A stretch of 64,000 nt of DNA, from NCBI RefSeq assembly GCF_000021485.1, contig NC_011761.1:2772501-2836500 (forward strand). Direction: 5' to 3'. A program made the translations under genes and the position numbers. The first letter of the stretch is position 1, and every line of letters starts with the position of its first letter. Source of the DNA: Acidithiobacillus ferrooxidans ATCC 23270 (GTDB taxonomy: Bacteria > Pseudomonadota > Gammaproteobacteria > Acidithiobacillales > Acidithiobacillaceae). The notes beneath the pieces were generated by a model, which saw only the letters and a list, made by a program, of their open reading frames with translations, was not told the origin of the DNA and made no database searches. This document shows positions 56,070 through 64,000 of the stretch, in pieces.

Positions 56070-56276
56070 ATTTAACACCTTAAATGAAGAAACGTCAGGT
56101 TATCTGCGTTTGGGAGTTTATCTGGATTAATTAATATATGTACCGTGGCGATCCTGTTTTCGTGGTCTATAGTTCAATAAACTTAACCAATCATCATACG
56201 CTGCATGCAAGTATACTCATAACATCATATAACGCATACCGCAAGACATGAATTCGTATTTTATAATAAACACCAA

Positions 56277-56309
56277 TGGCCAGGGCAAGATAACCATCCG
56301 CCCTGGCCA
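56277..56309 (-). terminator. Terminator of the rus operon
   Basis: TGGCCAGGGC and GCCCTGGCCA form a perfect 10-bp stem around a 13-base loop, 53 bases after the rus stop. The following bases (TTGGTGTTTATTAT on the minus strand) are T-rich but not a pure run. The stem lies between rus and ctaA. Confidence 0.8.
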
Positions 56310-56361
56310 CCGGGATCTACACTAACAAAGCGTCGTTACCCGAACAACAACCATCCGCGAA

Positions 56362-56925
56362 TTACTTGACAACGATCTTACCGAACATACCGGTGGCGGC
56401 ATGCCCCGGTATCTGACATACGTAGTAGTAAGTGCCCGCCGTCGGATGCCAGGTAAAATCCGTATATCCGAACTTGCCATCTTTTGGGACCGGACTGAAT
56501 CCTGTTCCTGCAACAATGGGGTCGATCACCGGCATAACCGCATAAGGAGGTCCTTTTTTGGTGATGTCAAAACTATGACCGAATCCCTTGTTGGTGTTAA
56601 TGAAGGTCACGTCCACCGTTGCCCCCGCGGGAATCTCCAAGGTCGGGTTCTTTTTGTCATGAACTTCAAAACTCGGAAATGGAAATCCCGGGAGCACGGC
56701 CGCCGCGACCACATGTACAGTCTTGCCACTGTAGGTAACAGTGTCACCACTGACTTTCCCGGTGTCTTTCTCCAACATGGCCTTTACTTGGGGAAGCGTC
56801 GCCTCTTTCCATGTGGTATCCAGAGTACCGGCCATCGCGGTGCCCATGCCGACCGTTGCCGCCAGAGCCGCAGCCGCACCAACAGTTACATACCAGTTCT
56901 TTTTCATCGTGTTCTGTGTATACAT
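56362..56925 (-). CDS. rus: Rusticyanin
   Basis: A 187-residue precursor of the acid-stable blue copper protein. The signal peptide ends near MAGTLD; the mature part is essentially the known A. ferrooxidans type A rusticyanin. Type 1 copper ligands are the His in FGHSFDI, and Cys, His and Met in YVCQIPGHAATGMFG. It takes electrons from Cyc2 in the periplasm and hands them to Cyc1 or CycA1. Start at ATG 56925 after AAGGAGAAGGG. It is the last gene of the rus operon. Confidence 0.97.
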   Translation of the reverse strand: MYTQNTMKKNWYVTVGAAAALAATVGMGTAMAGTLDTTWKEATLPQVKAMLEKDTGKVSGDTVTYSGKTVHVVAAAVLPGFPFPSFEVHDKKNPTLEIPAGATVDVTFINTNKGFGHSFDITKKGPPYAVMPVIDPIVAGTGFSPVPKDGKFGYTDFTWHPTAGTYYYVCQIPGHAATGMFGKIVVK

Positions 56926-57053
56926 TAGATCCCTTCTCCTTAACGTTTAACCTGATGTAGAACCAGCCGCCCTACAAAACAATCACTGGGCTATCTGGCA
57001 TTTTAATATGCTACTACACGATATTCATCACCCATTCCAACCGGGAAACTATC

Positions 57054-57194
57054 TCAAAACAGCACCCTAAGGGTAACATAATAGCCACCCAGAGCAATAA
57101 TAGCCCACAATAATCCTATGATCAACACGATGTTTCCATCCCATGCGCCATCATCGCGATCATCGTGAGAAATTAAACGGCCCTCGTTGTTCAT
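57054..57194 (-). CDS. Small membrane protein (46 residues) between coxD and rus
   Basis: An ATG at 57194 sits seven bases after AAAGGAGG, one of the best ribosome binding sites in the window. The 46-residue peptide has an acidic N-terminal part (SHDDRDDGAWDG) and one membrane helix (NIVLIIGLLWAIIALGGYYV). Length and topology resemble small oxidase subunits of the CcoQ/CbaD/CoxD type, but no homology is claimed. It is absent from the usual eight-gene description of the rus operon. Confidence 0.7.
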   Translation of the reverse strand: MNNEGRLISHDDRDDGAWDGNIVLIIGLLWAIIALGGYYVTLRVLF

Positions 57195-57255
57195 GATTTA
57201 CCTCCTTTGAAGCATGGGTAACGACGACGTCACGGTAAAACGCAAAACAAATCTG

Positions 57256-57292: not shown

Positions 57293-57487
57293 TCATGCGT
57301 TGCTAGATGCGCCGTTTTCTCCCTTTTTTAGAATACGCAGCCGATCTTCCTTGCCTGCCTCCTTTAATACCCACCAAAAGTATGCACTAAGAAACACTAC
57401 AGGAAACCCAATGTACCCCGTCAGCCAGAAGAACGTCGGATTATCAGCTCCGGACGGGATAACGAACGATAAATGTGACATATCCAT
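57293..57487 (-). CDS. coxD: Cytochrome c oxidase small subunit CoxD
   Basis: A 64-residue protein with one membrane segment (FFWLTGYIGFPVVFLSAYFWWVL) and a charged C-terminus, the fourth subunit of the rus-operon aa3 oxidase by position. GAGGG precedes the ATG. Role probably structural. Confidence 0.88.
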   Translation of the reverse strand: MDMSHLSFVIPSGADNPTFFWLTGYIGFPVVFLSAYFWWVLKEAGKEDRLRILKKGENGASSNA

Positions 57488-57527: not shown

Positions 57528-58082
57528 TTATGCAATATAGAAGACAATAAAAAACGCAACCCATAGAACAACCACACCGCCCCAGAAGGTTAACACGTTA
57601 TACGACACCCATCGCTCGCGTTTCGCGCGCTCCGGAGTGCGGGTGATTTTCATGATACTCGCCAGCAGCGCCAGGATGGCCGCCACGAAATGTACCAGAA
57701 ACCACAAGCTGGTAATGTCATAAATCCCGCCATAACCACTACCGATGGTTAAGGTAGTCCAGTTGTAGACGATTCCACCCGCCATCACCAACGAGACCAC
57801 CATCAGGGTTGCCAGGCTGCTCACGATACCGGCATCATCGCCCTGATCCAGTTTTTTGCGGGCCGTCATCACCGGCACCAGGCTGACAAGCATCAAAACA
57901 GTCAGCGCAACACCCACGCCCATGCTCAATGTAGCGGGCACCGCAGTGCCCCCCCACAGAAAACGCGCGAGGTCCCACATCGCAAAAATGATGGCTGCAA
58001 AAAGCAGCAGGAAAAAGAACGCACCCCTTTTTGCACGCTCCGAAGCCGGATCCATTAGCGTGGCATAACCGTTGTCTGTCAT
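57528..58082 (-). CDS. coxC: Cytochrome c oxidase subunit III
   Basis: A 184-residue subunit III with five membrane segments, shorter than the seven-helix form. SLWFLVHFVAAILALL and the C-terminal SYNVLTFWGGVVVLWVAFF are subunit III-like. It stabilises subunit I. AGGAGG lies upstream of its ATG, 19 bases after coxA. Confidence 0.92.
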   Translation of the reverse strand: MTDNGYATLMDPASERAKRGAFFFLLLFAAIIFAMWDLARFLWGGTAVPATLSMGVGVALTVLMLVSLVPVMTARKKLDQGDDAGIVSSLATLMVVSLVMAGGIVYNWTTLTIGSGYGGIYDITSLWFLVHFVAAILALLASIMKITRTPERAKRERWVSYNVLTFWGGVVVLWVAFFIVFYIA

Positions 58083-58101: not shown

Positions 58102-59985
58102 TTACTTGCTTGGCGTAGGTACCCAAATAAAAGGTTCTTTCGCTTCCGCCGCATAGTTATCGTTCGGGCCCACAACCTCTGGCTCAGTCCCTGCCGGATA
58201 TGGCACATACGGTGTTGGCGATTTTATTTGCCATTCCAGGCCGTTGCTGCCCCAAGGGTTGGCTTCGGCCTTGGGCCCATAGCGCCAACTGTATAAAAGG
58301 TTGGCCAGCGGAATGAGAAACCCTGCGCCCAGGAAAAAGGACGAGATAGACATAAACAGGTTAATGTCATGCAGGTAAGGAAGATATATCGCAATTCTCC
58401 TGTTCATTCCATCGAGGCCAGCTATAAACATGGGAAAGAACGTACAATTGAAGAATACGAAAAACCACCATGCGTGAAACTTTCCCCAAAATTCATTGAT
58501 CTTCCGTCCAGTAACCTTGGGAAACCACCAGTATAGCGCGGCAATCCAGCTAAAAATCACCCCACCAAGCATCGTATAATGAAAATGCGCAATAACCCAG
58601 TAGGTGTTGTGCAGCTGAAGGTCTGCGGGAACATCGGCATTGAATATGCCTGTCAGACCACCGATCAGGAAGTTCATCATCGCCATCAACACGAGCAACA
58701 CCGCAGCGTTAATTCTTAAACGACCACCCCATAACGTCCCGATGGCGGACAAATAAATGAACCCCGTCGGAATGGATACGGTTTCCGTTATCGTCATGAA
58801 TATGGGCATACGTGCGTCACTCACCGCAGTGAAGTAGTGATGAACGCCCAACATTGCACCCAACATGGAAACGCCAACCAGTCCAGCGATTGCCCAACCC
58901 CTAGCAAATAACGGACGCTTGGCCGCGGCAGGAAGAATCTCCAGCCATATGGCAAAAGCGGGCAGGATGAAAACGTAGACCTCTGGATGGAACAAAAACC
59001 AGAACTGATCCAGATACGCTAAGGGGTGCCCGGTGGGGCCGGTGTAAAAATGTGATCCGGCGATCATATCGGACAAATCCATGAGTGCGCCGGTATAGGT
59101 TGCTGGCGACTCTACGACGAGAATAGTGGCTGCCGCAAACAAACCCCACACAAAAATCGGAACGCGACCCAAGCTCATGCCCTTGGCGCGCATGTACACC
59201 ATGGTTCCGGCGATATTGATGGCTCCAAGTAGCGACGCAAAAAGAATGGTGGCGGCACCAAGGACGTACCACACAATACCGCTACCACTGTTTTGCGCCA
59301 ATGGCGGATATCCCCACCATCCAGTCTGAAACCCACCAATCGTAGGACTCATGAAAACAGCGACAGTCGCCGGTGGTAAAAGCCACCAACTCAGGCCGAG
59401 AAGCTTTGGGAATACTACATTTCTCGTGCCAAGCATCAACGGAATAAGATAGTAGCCAACACCGCCGACGATGGCAGATGCCACCACTCCCAGCAACATC
59501 ATCAATCCATGAATACCGAACGTTTGGTTGTACTGAATTTCCGACAGCCACCAACTGGTGGAATCCGGCGTCAACAATTCAATGCGGATAGCCATGGCGG
59601 CCATACCGGCGAGGAAGAATGTTACTATATTTAATACCACGTAGCGTACGGCCGTAGATTTTGAATCGGGACCAAAACGAAAATAACGTTCGATGCCCGT
59701 GTAAGTTGGGGCTTCTTTTCCTCCAAATGCGCGTCGTATCCATCCCTCCCATACGCCGCTGCCCATCAGCCAGCAGACCAAGCCGACCACATAACCCACT
59801 GTCGCGGGTAAAGGATTTACTATTACCGTATGGAGCAATAAAGCGGTAATCCATGCCGCAGCAAAATATCCGGTTAGTCCCCAAAGCGTCGCACGGACCA
59901 GCGGAAACAGCATGCTGGCCGCAAATGGCGTCTTGTCCACTCCCATGTTGTTCAACGCACTTTCCTGAATTTCGTTAGTTGCCAT
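58102..59985 (-). CDS. coxA: Cytochrome c oxidase subunit I (aa3 type)
   Basis: A 627-residue catalytic subunit with at least 12 helices. Ligands seen: low-spin heme His in FGIHGLMML; CuB His and cross-linked Tyr in FHPEVYVF; CuB pair in GVHHYFTAV; heme a3 and a His in AHFHYTMLGG. The residue before HPEVY is Phe rather than Gly. It reduces O2 to water using electrons from Fe(II). AAGGAG precedes the ATG. Confidence 0.96.
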   Translation of the reverse strand: MATNEIQESALNNMGVDKTPFAASMLFPLVRATLWGLTGYFAAAWITALLLHTVIVNPLPATVGYVVGLVCWLMGSGVWEGWIRRAFGGKEAPTYTGIERYFRFGPDSKSTAVRYVVLNIVTFFLAGMAAMAIRIELLTPDSTSWWLSEIQYNQTFGIHGLMMLLGVVASAIVGGVGYYLIPLMLGTRNVVFPKLLGLSWWLLPPATVAVFMSPTIGGFQTGWWGYPPLAQNSGSGIVWYVLGAATILFASLLGAINIAGTMVYMRAKGMSLGRVPIFVWGLFAAATILVVESPATYTGALMDLSDMIAGSHFYTGPTGHPLAYLDQFWFLFHPEVYVFILPAFAIWLEILPAAAKRPLFARGWAIAGLVGVSMLGAMLGVHHYFTAVSDARMPIFMTITETVSIPTGFIYLSAIGTLWGGRLRINAAVLLVLMAMMNFLIGGLTGIFNADVPADLQLHNTYWVIAHFHYTMLGGVIFSWIAALYWWFPKVTGRKINEFWGKFHAWWFFVFFNCTFFPMFIAGLDGMNRRIAIYLPYLHDINLFMSISSFFLGAGFLIPLANLLYSWRYGPKAEANPWGSNGLEWQIKSPTPYVPYPAGTEPEVVGPNDNYAAEAKEPFIWVPTPSK

Positions 59986-60041: not shown

Positions 60042-60806
60042 CTAGAAGCTATTGTTTGCCACCCAAGTCTTGAAGTCCGCTGGTGTCACCACCTTAACCG
60101 GAGCGCGCATCAACGGATGTCCGTTGCCACAAATCAAGGAACACTGTACACGCAGCATGGGGTTTGTAGCGGTTGTTCCCAGCATGGTGGGTGTAATAAA
60201 CAAGTGCCGCACTTCATTTGGGATCACGTCCTTTTTCTCACCCCAGGCAGGTACCCAAAAATCGTGCATGACGTCCTTTGTCCGCAGAACAAAGTCTATG
60301 GTGCGCCCCTCTGGAACCACCAGTTGTGAAACATCCGTTACGCCCTGCTTGGGATAAGAGAACGTCCACTTCCATTGTTGCGCGGTAACATCGATCACCA
60401 ATGGATTTTTCGTATCTAACTGGATACCCCAAAGTTGTTCCAGGCCCACCATACCCGGGTAAATGGTATTTGCCAGGTTGATGCCTATGGCCAAAACCAG
60501 CCAGGTCACTACGAAAGGTGCCCAGGTCCGCTTTTGATAAGCCGGCGCCGCAGTGTCTGACATGGACGATGCGCGGAAACGAAACGCGCTATATACAACC
60601 GCACCGCCGACCAGCACATATATGGCTACGGCCTGCCATAACAGGTATGTGGTGGCATCCGCGGTAATATGCGCCTGGATACTCCCCAAAATTGGCCAGT
60701 TACCGATGCCCCAGGCCATCAGCGTTTCGCCAATCGCCAGGCCAATAATCCAGACCATCACCAAGCCACGGAAAGCTTTCCATAAATTTTCTTTTGCTGC
60801 GTTCAT
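60042..60806 (-). CDS. coxB: Cytochrome c oxidase subunit II
   Basis: A 254-residue subunit II with two membrane helices and a periplasmic cupredoxin domain binding CuA. The CuA loop reads CSLICGNGHPLM: both Cys, the His and the Met are in place, but the usual Glu of CSE-C is replaced. The upstream His is in MHDFWVPAWG. It receives electrons from Cyc1/AcoP. GGGAGGG precedes the ATG. Confidence 0.95.
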   Translation of the reverse strand: MNAAKENLWKAFRGLVMVWIIGLAIGETLMAWGIGNWPILGSIQAHITADATTYLLWQAVAIYVLVGGAVVYSAFRFRASSMSDTAAPAYQKRTWAPFVVTWLVLAIGINLANTIYPGMVGLEQLWGIQLDTKNPLVIDVTAQQWKWTFSYPKQGVTDVSQLVVPEGRTIDFVLRTKDVMHDFWVPAWGEKKDVIPNEVRHLFITPTMLGTTATNPMLRVQCSLICGNGHPLMRAPVKVVTPADFKTWVANNSF

Positions 60807-60820
60807 ATGCCCTCCCTAAA

Positions 60821-61372
60821 TTAGCTTCCCTGAGCAGGTAGTATGTCAAGAATGCCATGCATACCATTCATGAAGTGTTGACCCGTCTGCAGAAAACACC
60901 CATATTCCCATTTCCCGGGCTTATTGGGCACCACAAAACTGAAGGTGTACTTTTGTCCGCCGTTGAGGCTGACGGAAAATGCCGGTACCGGTCCTGTCTG
61001 GCCCCCGCTGGTAATTGGCACACCATCAAAGAAGTTATCTTTCCATCCCACGGCTATAGCCTGTGATTTTGGAAAGCCATTGTCCCGGGATACCAGTGTT
61101 CTGCCGATGGAGAACTGATGCGCAATCGGGGGTGCCGATTGCGATCGGTTATCTATCGTCAACTCCACTTTTTCCCCGACATGCCAGGTCATCCGATCCG
61201 GTTTATAATAATAGTTAAACTCATCAATCGTATAATGATGTACTCCATTAATGACCTGCCCGGAAGGATTGGGCAGAGCTACCGCTTTTTCCCACTGCAG
61301 GGCGCCTATAATTACCCCCGCGCATATCACGGCGGATACAAGCACCGTAGTCATACCTTTTTTTGCTGCCAT
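60821..61372 (-). CDS. acoP: Cupredoxin AcoP (oxidase-associated)
   Basis: A 183-residue periplasmic cupredoxin anchored by an N-terminal helix (VLVSAVICAGVIIGAL). Copper ligands are likely the His in IAHQFSIG and Cys and His in YGCFLQTGQHFMNGMHG; the usual Met ligand is not at the plastocyanin position. In A. ferrooxidans AcoP binds the aa3 oxidase and supports electron transfer or oxidase stability. The ATG at 61372 follows AAGGAGGTAGAGGT; the frame open from 61414 is not used. Confidence 0.9.
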   Translation of the reverse strand: MAAKKGMTTVLVSAVICAGVIIGALQWEKAVALPNPSGQVINGVHHYTIDEFNYYYKPDRMTWHVGEKVELTIDNRSQSAPPIAHQFSIGRTLVSRDNGFPKSQAIAVGWKDNFFDGVPITSGGQTGPVPAFSVSLNGGQKYTFSFVVPNKPGKWEYGCFLQTGQHFMNGMHGILDILPAQGS

Positions 61373-61473
61373 ACCTCTACCTCCTTTGAGAAGCACATAA
61401 ATCTGTCGGTGCAAATGCCTGGCAGACCCATTTTTATAAATTTCAGTCTGCCAGGAAAACTTCTGCTGACCAG

Positions 61474-62166
61474 TTACAACGATGAAAGATAAGCCGCCAC
61501 ATCCTTCATCTGCGCCACGGTGATATTCTTCGCAATCTGATTCATCAGGGTATTAACCCGTGTGCCGTTGTGGAAGTAGGTCAACTGCTGAATGATGTAA
61601 CCGTAACGCTGGCCCGCCAAGCGGGGGAACGGGCCCGCTCCTTGGCCAGCCGATCCGTGGCATTCCATGCAGGCAGGGATTTGTTCGTTGGTAACCCCTT
61701 GGTTGAATATGGCCTTTCCTTCTTTCACACCGGCATGCTTGATGCCGCTGCTTTGCATCGGCGGCTTCTGGGCGTTGAAGTAATCCGCCAGCGCCGTGAT
61801 TTTCGCACTGTCCAGCGCTTGTGCCACGGGCCACATGTAGATTTCGCCATTCTGATCGGCACGGGAGTGGTCCTTATACGCTTTCAACTGCGCCTCCAGA
61901 TAACTTTTATGCTGTCCGGCCAAGCGGGGGACGATCGGGTAAAGTGTGTCACGGCCAGTCATCCCGTGGCACACCATACAATCGCTGGAAACGCGGTATG
62001 GCGCCGGCGCGTCGGCGCTGCCGACGGCAGCACTCGCCTGCCCGGCCACCAGCAGGAGTGCGCTGAACAGGAGGAAGGTTTTCGACTTATACATCTTGCT
62101 ATGTGGATGGGTCATCGTGTCGTTCTCTTTATTGCGCAACCGGTCTTGGCTTAAGTATGTCGTCAT
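61474..62166 (-). CDS. cyc1: Diheme c4-type cytochrome c-552 (Cyc1)
   Basis: A 230-residue precursor, the length known for A. ferrooxidans Cyc1. Signal helix TFLLFSALLLVAGQASA, then two heme motifs, CMVCH and CMECH, each with a downstream PRLAGQ. It carries electrons from rusticyanin to CoxB/AcoP. In-frame ATGs at 62115 and 62094 could be the real starts since AGAGAA lies before 62115; the signal peptide is kept in either case. Confidence 0.94.
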   Translation of the reverse strand: MTTYLSQDRLRNKENDTMTHPHSKMYKSKTFLLFSALLLVAGQASAAVGSADAPAPYRVSSDCMVCHGMTGRDTLYPIVPRLAGQHKSYLEAQLKAYKDHSRADQNGEIYMWPVAQALDSAKITALADYFNAQKPPMQSSGIKHAGVKEGKAIFNQGVTNEQIPACMECHGSAGQGAGPFPRLAGQRYGYIIQQLTYFHNGTRVNTLMNQIAKNITVAQMKDVAAYLSSL

Positions 62167-62177
62167 GGCATCGGCTC

Positions 62178-63635
62178 CTAGTATGATATCCAGGCCAGCA
62201 GTTCAAGGGTGTTATACGCAGACGCCCCATATCCAAGGTTGTTGGACGACGCCGAACCAACGCCATTGAACTTGTTGTATACGACATATCGCAAGGAGAA
62301 GCGGGTATTCCACCACGGCAGATAGGAAGCCTCTATCCATTCATTGCTGGTGTCCGGAGAACCACTATTGGTGTATGTGGTACCGTAGAGACCGGGGTTG
62401 GCGGATCCCCACACATTCCGGTATCCGCCCTGGATACCGTAGTGGTCGTGATACCAATAGGTGGCATTAATATTGAAGAAATTCAAGTTACCGGAGGAGT
62501 TCGAAGATATGACATTCCCCGCTCCAAATTGCTGCTGCTCGTTTACCCATGCAGCACGGATCGTCACGTTATTGTTGTCGTTGGTGTCAAGCCATTGGAG
62601 CTGAGTATCTAAATCATAATCATCGAAGGTATCAATGGGGCCGCCTGCTTTATTGAGAGTGTTATTTATGGTGTTATCGTACACGCTGGACCACATGCCA
62701 AAGGTACCGACCTCCCAGTTCCAGTCACCCCAATCGTGCTGATAGGCAAGACGAACATAAGGGGCGCCCCCTGAAAGTCTGCCCTGGGGGCCAGCTGCAG
62801 TAAAGCCGCCAACCGGGTTGACCTGGGTTCCTTGACCGTTGGTATAAACATCGGCGTCTGCGTAGAGCCAGTTTGCCCTGTTTGGCCCGAAGATATCGGC
62901 TCCGTAGACACCAACACCCGCTAATGGGTAACCAGCACCTGCTGAACTTTCAATGAATGGCTGAGGTACGTGGCCCCAAGACGAATAGTCTGAGCTAAAA
63001 AATGGTGCCTGCCAATCCGGTGTGGTATTCCACAAGTCCATAGCAGTCGGCGTATTGTTGACGTCTACGCCCGTGACCAAAAGATTATTGGTGCCCAACT
63101 TCCATGGATGGGTCCAGACAATGCTGGAGTCATCAAAACTAAATCCTCCGGCACCGGCACCACTGCCGCCGCCAGAGTAGGTCAAATGCAGAAACGACCC
63201 AATATGCGGAGTGATTTCACCGGCATAGAACAAGCTCACCTGTTGGGGGAACTGAACATTATTGTTGGGAGAAGCACCCGCATTAGAGTTCCCAGGACCA
63301 AACACCGCCTGACCGCCACCAACATTGGTCGCCGAAGCCTGCAGAAAAATAGAAAATTGTGATACGCGGGATATGAGCAGACCGACGCTGTTCCCGAACT
63401 TGGCTTGGAGTTTCTGTTGCCGTTGCAGGTTTGTGGTCGTGAACCCGAGCAATTTGAACATTCTGCCCATGGGCGTCAACTGCGGGTAGGATGTGTGACA
63501 GGCAGCGCACGACCAACCGGTCTGACGCGCAAAGGATGGCAGTGCCCAGGCACCGGAAGACAACGCCATTCCACCAACTGCTGCTAATGCTACGATCAAC
63601 CTTTTCTTTTTAAAACCAACGGACGATGACACCAT
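62178..63635 (-). CDS. cyc2: Outer-membrane iron-oxidising cytochrome c Cyc2
   Basis: A 485-residue precursor, the published length. Signal peptide ends near GAWALP; a single heme motif CAACH (C43, C46, H47) opens the mature protein, followed by about 420 residues of alternating, aromatic-rich beta-barrel sequence ending in a terminal aromatic (LLAWISY), as in porins. It oxidises Fe(II) outside the cell and passes electrons inwards to rusticyanin. The ATG at 63635 follows GGAGGGG; the frame start at 63647 is less likely. First gene of the operon. Confidence 0.96.
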   Translation of the reverse strand: MVSSSVGFKKKRLIVALAAVGGMALSSGAWALPSFARQTGWSCAACHTSYPQLTPMGRMFKLLGFTTTNLQRQQKLQAKFGNSVGLLISRVSQFSIFLQASATNVGGGQAVFGPGNSNAGASPNNNVQFPQQVSLFYAGEITPHIGSFLHLTYSGGGSGAGAGGFSFDDSSIVWTHPWKLGTNNLLVTGVDVNNTPTAMDLWNTTPDWQAPFFSSDYSSWGHVPQPFIESSAGAGYPLAGVGVYGADIFGPNRANWLYADADVYTNGQGTQVNPVGGFTAAGPQGRLSGGAPYVRLAYQHDWGDWNWEVGTFGMWSSVYDNTINNTLNKAGGPIDTFDDYDLDTQLQWLDTNDNNNVTIRAAWVNEQQQFGAGNVISSNSSGNLNFFNINATYWYHDHYGIQGGYRNVWGSANPGLYGTTYTNSGSPDTSNEWIEASYLPWWNTRFSLRYVVYNKFNGVGSASSNNLGYGASAYNTLELLAWISY

Positions 63636-64000
63636 AATCCCCTCCATAGCGGTATGCGCTTTCAGGCATATTAGATAAACAAAATACGCTCATGCGCCCG
63701 GTCTTCCTGCCAGGCTGGTAACAGCAAACCACAACAACGCGATGCCAATTAATAAAACCTATAGCCAACCAGAATTCATAATGTAGGCTTATGAATTGTT
63801 TCTGGTTGGTCTCAACCCGCCCCTAACCAGTGGTGTTGCGTTGCTAACAGCACCCACACGTTCTATTTAGTACAAACCGTAATACTTTGCAACACCTTTT
63901 TATGCTCCCATTAAAATACATGGCCAACCCTTCCATGCATTTCACGATCACCTCGCGAGCTACAATTATAATACTCATACAATCAATACGTTGTGAACGC
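63636..64000. promoter_or_regulatory. Upstream region of the rus operon
   Basis: 365 bp without a gene. It holds the cyc2 ribosome binding site (GGAGGGG), a long inverted repeat at 63765-63809 and AT-rich DNA where promoters are expected. I could not assign a specific -35/-10 pair or RegA site by eye. Confidence 0.5.
63765..63809. repeat. Large inverted repeat upstream of cyc2
   Basis: CCAACCAGAATTCATAA (63765-63781) pairs with TTATGAATT (63789-63797) and CTGGTTGG (63802-63809); the two right-hand pieces are separated by a 4-base GTTT bulge, around a 7-base loop. All 17 left-arm bases can pair. Confidence 0.85.

Follow-up and report, generated by a model that had tools for sequence, protein, structure and literature searches.

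A putative ninth gene of the rus operon of Acidithiobacillus ferrooxidans, predicted to encode a small single-helix membrane protein

Comparison of sequences from three bacterial groups indicates that the rus operon of Acidithiobacillus ferrooxidans ATCC 23270 carries a real ninth protein-coding gene, here termed X, which lies between coxD and rus and probably represents a component of the iron-oxidising respiratory machinery that has been missed. The operon specifies the textbook electron path from iron to oxygen. In the sections of PMC2754497 consulted it is described as cotranscribed and more highly expressed in Fe(II)-grown cells. The published gene lists, as excerpted, give the operon eight genes and place none between coxD and rus; as there are eight locus tags for these eight genes, no tag is left over for X. 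Excerpts of the open-licence literature on iron oxidisers similarly name no gene at this position. A Figure 1 legend dealing with the oxidase clusters of iron oxidisers does include a gene for a ‘short hypothetical protein’ (PMC8239418, legend text), which could be either cup or X.

The window, that is the whole 64,000-nucleotide stretch of DNA that was analysed (NC_011761.1, positions 2,772,501 to 2,836,500), holds the features collected in Table 1. The original prediction, made from the letters of this DNA, proposed a 46-codon frame on the operon strand between coxD and rus, and an open 46-residue frame is indeed found there, on the minus strand that it shares with both neighbours, with the translation MNNEGRLISHDDRDDGAWDGNIVLIIGLLWAIIALGGYYVTLRVLF. 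It starts 98 bases past the coxD stop codon and ends 128 bases ahead of the rus start codon. The sequence that had been noted ahead of its ATG, the Shine-Dalgarno site AAAGGAGG, is present as well, although it is separated from the ATG by six bases by our count rather than seven, and most X orthologues are preceded by purine-rich sites of the GGAG or GAGG type. Because a stop codon lies two codons 5′ of the ATG, this ATG is the sole common start codon ahead of the conserved core of the protein. The length of the frame by itself means little, since dinucleotide shuffling of the 367-base coxD-rus gap produced an ATG-initiated frame of at least 46 codons in 1511 of 5000 trials; a frame together with a Shine-Dalgarno site arose in 18 of the 5000, and one that also encoded a hydrophobic helix in two. 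It is the conservation of the frame across relatives, at 20 loci in 19 genomes, that establishes X as a gene.

Table 1. Features of the rus operon region, with coordinates in the window
Feature	Coordinates	Strand	Basis or remark
X, 46-aa putative single-helix gene, ATG to stop	57054..57194	-	frame, orthologues, selection
X conserved core, residues 20-46 (modelled helix 20-45)	57057..57137	-	alignment A4, pN/pS ~0.2, AlphaFold
X fast-evolving head, residues 1-19	57138..57194	-	pN/pS 0.54-0.79
X Shine-Dalgarno site	57201..57208	-	6 bases ahead of ATG
rus (rusticyanin, 187 aa), downstream neighbour of X in 20/20 loci	56362..56925	-	
coxD, 64 aa, upstream neighbour of X in Acidithiobacillaceae	57293..57487	-	
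coxC	57528..58082	-	
coxA (subunit I, COX1)	58102..59985	-	PF00115
coxB (subunit II)	60042..60806	-	
cup/acoP, longest frame, start provisional	60821..61414	-	name from operon order; orthologues
cyc1, longest frame, start provisional	61474..62166	-	name from operon order; orthologues
cyc2	62178..63647	-	name from operon order; orthologues

The X orthologues encode proteins of 44-48 residues and fall into three bacterial groups, the Acidithiobacillaceae and two others that we call Acidihalobacter-like and Acidiferrobacter-like, names inferred from their gene orders and from the operon descriptions in the available part of PMC10654088. Within the genus Acidithiobacillus, 7 of 17 genomes gave a match (E 1.3e-13 or better), and within the order 8 of 31 (E 7.2e-6 or better; G000, G002 twice, G003, G004, G005, G007, G011 and G024). 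X is thereby found also in A. ferruginosus, A. ferrivorans, A. ferriphilus, one MAG and A. ferrianus (G002), which has two highly similar rus plus cta operons, each with X, on separate contigs (L091 and L092). All three genomes of the Acidihalobacter-like genus carry X (three of the five in its order), as do 8 of the 14 in the Acidiferrobacter-like genus (8 of the 57 in its order). Sampling more widely, X was confined to 3 of 369 genomes across the class, the three with a rus operon, and across the phylum 2 of 398 genomes matched, namely the genome under study and G799. The latter match (E 7e-4; L112:3925-4611) is the N-terminus of a longer frame, has no oxidase context and was taken as chance; its internal hydrophobic helix, which probably sits N-terminally in the protein, is similar to that of X (24.6 bits), and the frame is flanked by what we take to be glyQ and glyS. 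No plasmid record matched the X query P0001 at E 0.01. Weak matches in five further genomes of the order (E 0.07-0.72) were set aside. One of these, in G019 (E 0.07), overlaps longer frames and adjoins no operon gene, and the other weak matches in the order (E 0.35-0.87) were taken as chance uninspected. Matches from the genus search at E 0.05-1.24, which lie mostly inside long frames (66-456 aa), were set aside as well.

Frame conservation and synonymous bias across relatives had been proposed as the check on X, and both were found: 19 of the 20 copies are intact and pN/pS of the core is close to 0.2. Frameshifts or stops in relatives, which were to count against the gene, occur in one copy, that of the Acidihalobacter-like genome G397 (L090:7310-7610), where a frameshift in the C-terminal third lies beside a run of G and may be either a sequencing error or real decay. 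Alignment A4 contains 18 of the 20 copies, the second G002 copy (whose protein is the same as the first) and the frameshifted one being left out, and the selection tests used 17, from which G024, fitting no group, was also omitted. Pooled over pairs that are not independent of one another, pN/pS for the whole of X was 0.39 among the seven Acidithiobacillus copies, 0.52 among the eight Acidiferrobacter-like copies and 0.35 for the one Acidihalobacter-like pair. From G20 onwards the corresponding values were 0.22, 0.19 and 0.22, and for the head they were 0.54, 0.64 and 0.79. When base differences were permuted, amino-acid changes as few as those observed were obtained in none of 2000 permutations for five of ten pairs, in 3 of 2000 for two and in 67 of 2000 for one. 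The two close pairs gave 303 of 2000 (G000-G004) and 1085 of 2000 (G000-G005), neither of which alone rejects neutral change, so that the signal of selection on X comes mostly from the wider pairs.

The sequences around X provide further points of comparison. In each of the seven pairs compared, the gap that precedes X shows lower conservation than X itself (43-80% against 67-94%). The X-rus gap falls below X in four of these pairs (for example 50% against 84% for G000-G005) and equals or exceeds it in the other three (G004-G005, G002-G011 and G005-G011, with 93 against 92%, 94 against 94% and 73 against 67%), which points to some constraint outside the X frame also. A rus promoter or leader could account for this constraint, at window 56926-57053. 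Two frames of similar length, both in the rus-ctaA gap, served as a control and were followed through six relatives. In both close relatives the one on the minus strand falls apart into two reading frames and the one on the plus strand aligns unbroken; neither was found in the four more distant relatives, where X is intact. In the part of PMC2754497 consulted ctaA is AFE_3144 and rus is AFE_3146, and the tag AFE_3145 may sit in the gap that they flank (window 56079-56361). An annotated gene there could be spurious, the two frames tested being absent from the more distant relatives.

The conservation of the X-rus gap also bears on whether X encodes a protein at all. A leader, or a chance frame that overlaps a conserved promoter or regulatory RNA ahead of rus, would accord with the conservation of that gap in the three pairs just given and with its length of 127-135 bases in the seven Acidithiobacillus copies, and X itself has weak promoter- and terminator-like matches (two and one, against 1.3 and 0.3 expected). 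Such a reading is nevertheless extremely improbable, as the low core pN/pS recurs in three separate groups, unlike a non-coding element, and the same protein frame is found in three different gene orders; moreover, the X-rus gap folds no better than its shuffles (z +0.4), and no Rfam match rose above its gathering score, a single sub-threshold match lying inside rus. It is also very unlikely that X is the decaying remnant of a former subunit that is no longer needed. The frameshifted copy and the poorly conserved head would be in keeping with decay, but the remaining copies are all intact and purifying selection acts on the core in all three groups. Collectively, the conserved frame and start, the Shine-Dalgarno sites, the purifying selection on the helix and the fixed position in three lineages bear out the original proposal that X is a missed gene.

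The protein itself was predicted to have an acidic head followed by one membrane helix, and this description holds, with a net charge of -4 on the N-terminal side and a Kyte-Doolittle peak of 2.37 over residues 22-40. A hydrophobic peak of 1.9-2.5 is found in all 18 aligned sequences, over which G20, V23, L24, W30, L35, G36 and Y39 are invariant and M1, I33 and G37 nearly so; no His, Cys, or Met past the start is conserved among them. AlphaFold models a single helix over residues 20-45, with pLDDT near 90 over residues 21-40, low confidence in the head and a mean pLDDT of 71.6. Of the 18 sequences, 16 have an acidic N-terminal side (-3 to -8), and two Acidihalobacter-like ones have a charge of +1 there. 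This charge distribution hints that the head is periplasmic, or outside, in most copies, an indication that is weak because the C-terminal side has just one positive residue in most of them.

At all 20 loci X is directly upstream of the operon copy of rus, on the same strand. The Acidithiobacillaceae have coxD ahead of X; the other two groups have ctaB there, the order being coxD-ctaA-ctaB-X-rus in the Acidihalobacter-like and coxD-ctaB-X-rus-ctaG in the Acidiferrobacter-like operons. The constant unit across the three gene orders is X followed by rus, and X is always downstream of coxBACD. The genomes with X coincide with those that have coxD, both in the order (8 of 31) and in the Acidiferrobacter-like genus (8 of 14), and coxD is present in all three Acidihalobacter-like operons with X. 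The eight X-bearing genomes of the order also have rusticyanin (TIGR03095). A profile scan of the surroundings of six rus loci on contigs lacking coxD, one of them a contig-edge fragment, detected no X (best E 0.76), and in the positive control all nine operon rus loci matched the X profile (E 1.1e-20 or better). By the same scan X was absent from the second rus of G291 and from two further rus-like genes of G235.

The oxidase can also be followed beyond the operons that carry X. Relatives of CoxA at E 1e-100 were found in 5 of the 369 genomes of the class-wide sample, three of which are those with X, the other two being G180 and G385, which belong to one genus (CoxA identity 52%). Their sister operon, cup-coxBACD-ctaB, is closely followed by a cupredoxin that shares about 34% identity with Rus over its C-terminal half, and the scan of 12-13 kb at these loci detected no X. 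In both regions (L110:2419-9038 and L111:2797-9323) the cupredoxin is followed by a frame of 78-79 aa with one hydrophobic stretch and by one of about 450 aa. Other rusticyanin-like genes of G180 and G385 scored 94 and 97 bits at best against a family cut-off of 146.7, which the G291 rusticyanin, with a score of 137, also fails to reach, so that whether these genomes lack a close rusticyanin depends on where the line is drawn. A second coxBACD copy is present at a contig end in G401 (C52; L113:12867-15718), a genome that also has an X and rus operon, and this contig-cut copy is without ctaB, X or rus downstream. Together with the X-less sister operons, it indicates that this type of oxidase can do without X.

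No credible match to any member of alignment A4 was found in Pfam, NCBIfam or the PDB sequences. Pfam matches to Consortin_C and AIF-MLS (E 0.08-0.11 in three member matches) and PDB matches to filamin, spectrin and plectin chains (E ~1) were taken as chance. Small single-helix chains of known oxidases were also compared with X, their scores against the X profile being read against a background of 705 membrane windows from the loci studied, 652 of them scored and the 53 unscored counted as lower. The Pfam families concerned we take to be PF07835 for bacterial aa3 subunit IV, PF08113 for ba3 subunit IIa and PF08173 for CydX/YbgT. Subunit IV of aa3-type oxidases (7ate_D and 1m56_D, presumably of Paracoccus and Rhodobacter, with a fold that we take to be a single helix) resembles X in being a chain of about 50 aa. 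However, 7ate_D scored -0.2 bits, a value reached by 136 of the 705 background windows, there was no Pfam match, and the rus operon already carries the small CoxD. Subunit IIa of the ba3 oxidase (1xme_C, presumably of Thermus) is, like X, a short single helix, of 34 aa, carrying an LG.Y motif and, close to its end, an Arg, but it scored -2.1 bits, with 527 of the 705 windows as high; the LG.Y...R likeness, though visually attractive, is at chance level and the family gave no match. CoxD too is a small rus operon product with one hydrophobic stretch, and adjoins X in the Acidithiobacillaceae, yet comparison of the two profiles gave a probability of 0.1%, and its X-profile score of -1.9 bits is within the background. 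On these tests all three assignments were rejected.

A functional parallel is provided by the CydX/YbgT proteins, which in the consulted parts of the sources are, like X, small hydrophobic proteins of fewer than 50 aa that are encoded in terminal oxidase operons, are often unannotated and have few conserved residues (PMC4325964; PMC6005532). CydX itself, of 37 aa, is described as part of cytochrome bd, and 80 of its more than 300 homologues were unannotated (PMC4325964, same parts). X has the corresponding pattern of one predicted hydrophobic helix, a length under 50 aa and a place in a terminal oxidase operon, but its oxidase is of the heme-copper class, with coxBACD, rather than cytochrome bd, and none of the 18 X members matched the CydX/YbgT Pfam family at E up to 10 (HMMER filters on). 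As far as sequence comparison indicates, X is a new small family among the small single-helix proteins of oxidase operons.

What X does can be proposed by analogy. The gene would be translated into a 44-48-residue protein inserted by its single helix into the inner membrane, where the helix would bind the aa3 oxidase of the iron-oxidation chain, presumably packing through the conserved G..V/W/LGGYY residues. Once bound, X may stabilise the oxidase, or its contact with periplasmic electron donors, in the manner of CydX in cytochrome bd. For a helix that is short and conserved, bears a GG and aromatic patch and, in the genomes searched, occurs only alongside a terminal oxidase, the best reading is that of an accessory subunit, and we lean slightly towards X being a CydX-like accessory subunit or stabiliser bound to the iron-linked aa3 oxidase or supercomplex. 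The constant link with rus, coupled with the absence of X from a sister operon that has a distant cupredoxin, suggests a role connected with the iron branch. Indeed, with rus rather than coxD as the constant neighbour, and with that sister operon lacking X, rusticyanin or the iron chain is favoured as much as the oxidase, and a shared operon is to be expected whatever function X has in the pathway. The earlier suggestion that X serves the iron-linked aa3 oxidase finds partial and indirect support in the identical X and coxD genome sets and in the lack of X at the six coxD-less rus loci. A more exacting version, which we put forward as doubtful, is that X is an intrinsic subunit only of rusticyanin-wired aa3 oxidases, its helix packing on the oxidase and its head docking rusticyanin or a cytochrome.

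Two other roles have to be weighed against that of an accessory subunit. Small single-helix helpers of oxidase assembly are known, and X could be such a factor, acting in the maturation of the aa3 oxidase (heme A or copper insertion, or the joining of subunits) and absent from the finished enzyme. The position of X after ctaB, the heme O synthase gene, in two lineages would fit this, but in Acidithiobacillus genomes rus stands between X and ctaA/ctaB, and the residues that are invariant are G, V, L, W and Y, with no conserved His, Cys, or Met past the start; we think an assembly role rather unlikely. Alternatively it might be rusticyanin or the supercomplex, and not the core of the oxidase, that X serves, its membrane helix carrying a periplasmic head that docks rusticyanin or a cytochrome near CoxB. 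The invariable succession of X and rus behind a variable preceding gene, the acidity of the head in most sequences and the absence of X beside the sister oxidase, whose cupredoxin is so distant from Rus, would all be in keeping with this. Against it, the six rus loci away from coxD have no X, the head is the least conserved part of the protein and is non-acidic in two sequences, and X is kept in three Acidihalobacter-like operons without a cyc1 match between cyc2 and cup, and we regard a purely docking role as unlikely.

If X were indeed an intrinsic subunit that docks the electron donor, it would be a distinguishing feature of the oxidase with which acidophiles respire Fe(II), and would fill a gap in the supercomplex. 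More generally, a ninth gene present in three lineages would mean that reconstitution, structural and expression work that started from the eight-gene list omitted a component. Since in the genomes searched X occurs only with the rusticyanin-type oxidase operon, it may also serve in surveys to mark iron-respiring aa3 operons as distinct from their sister operons.
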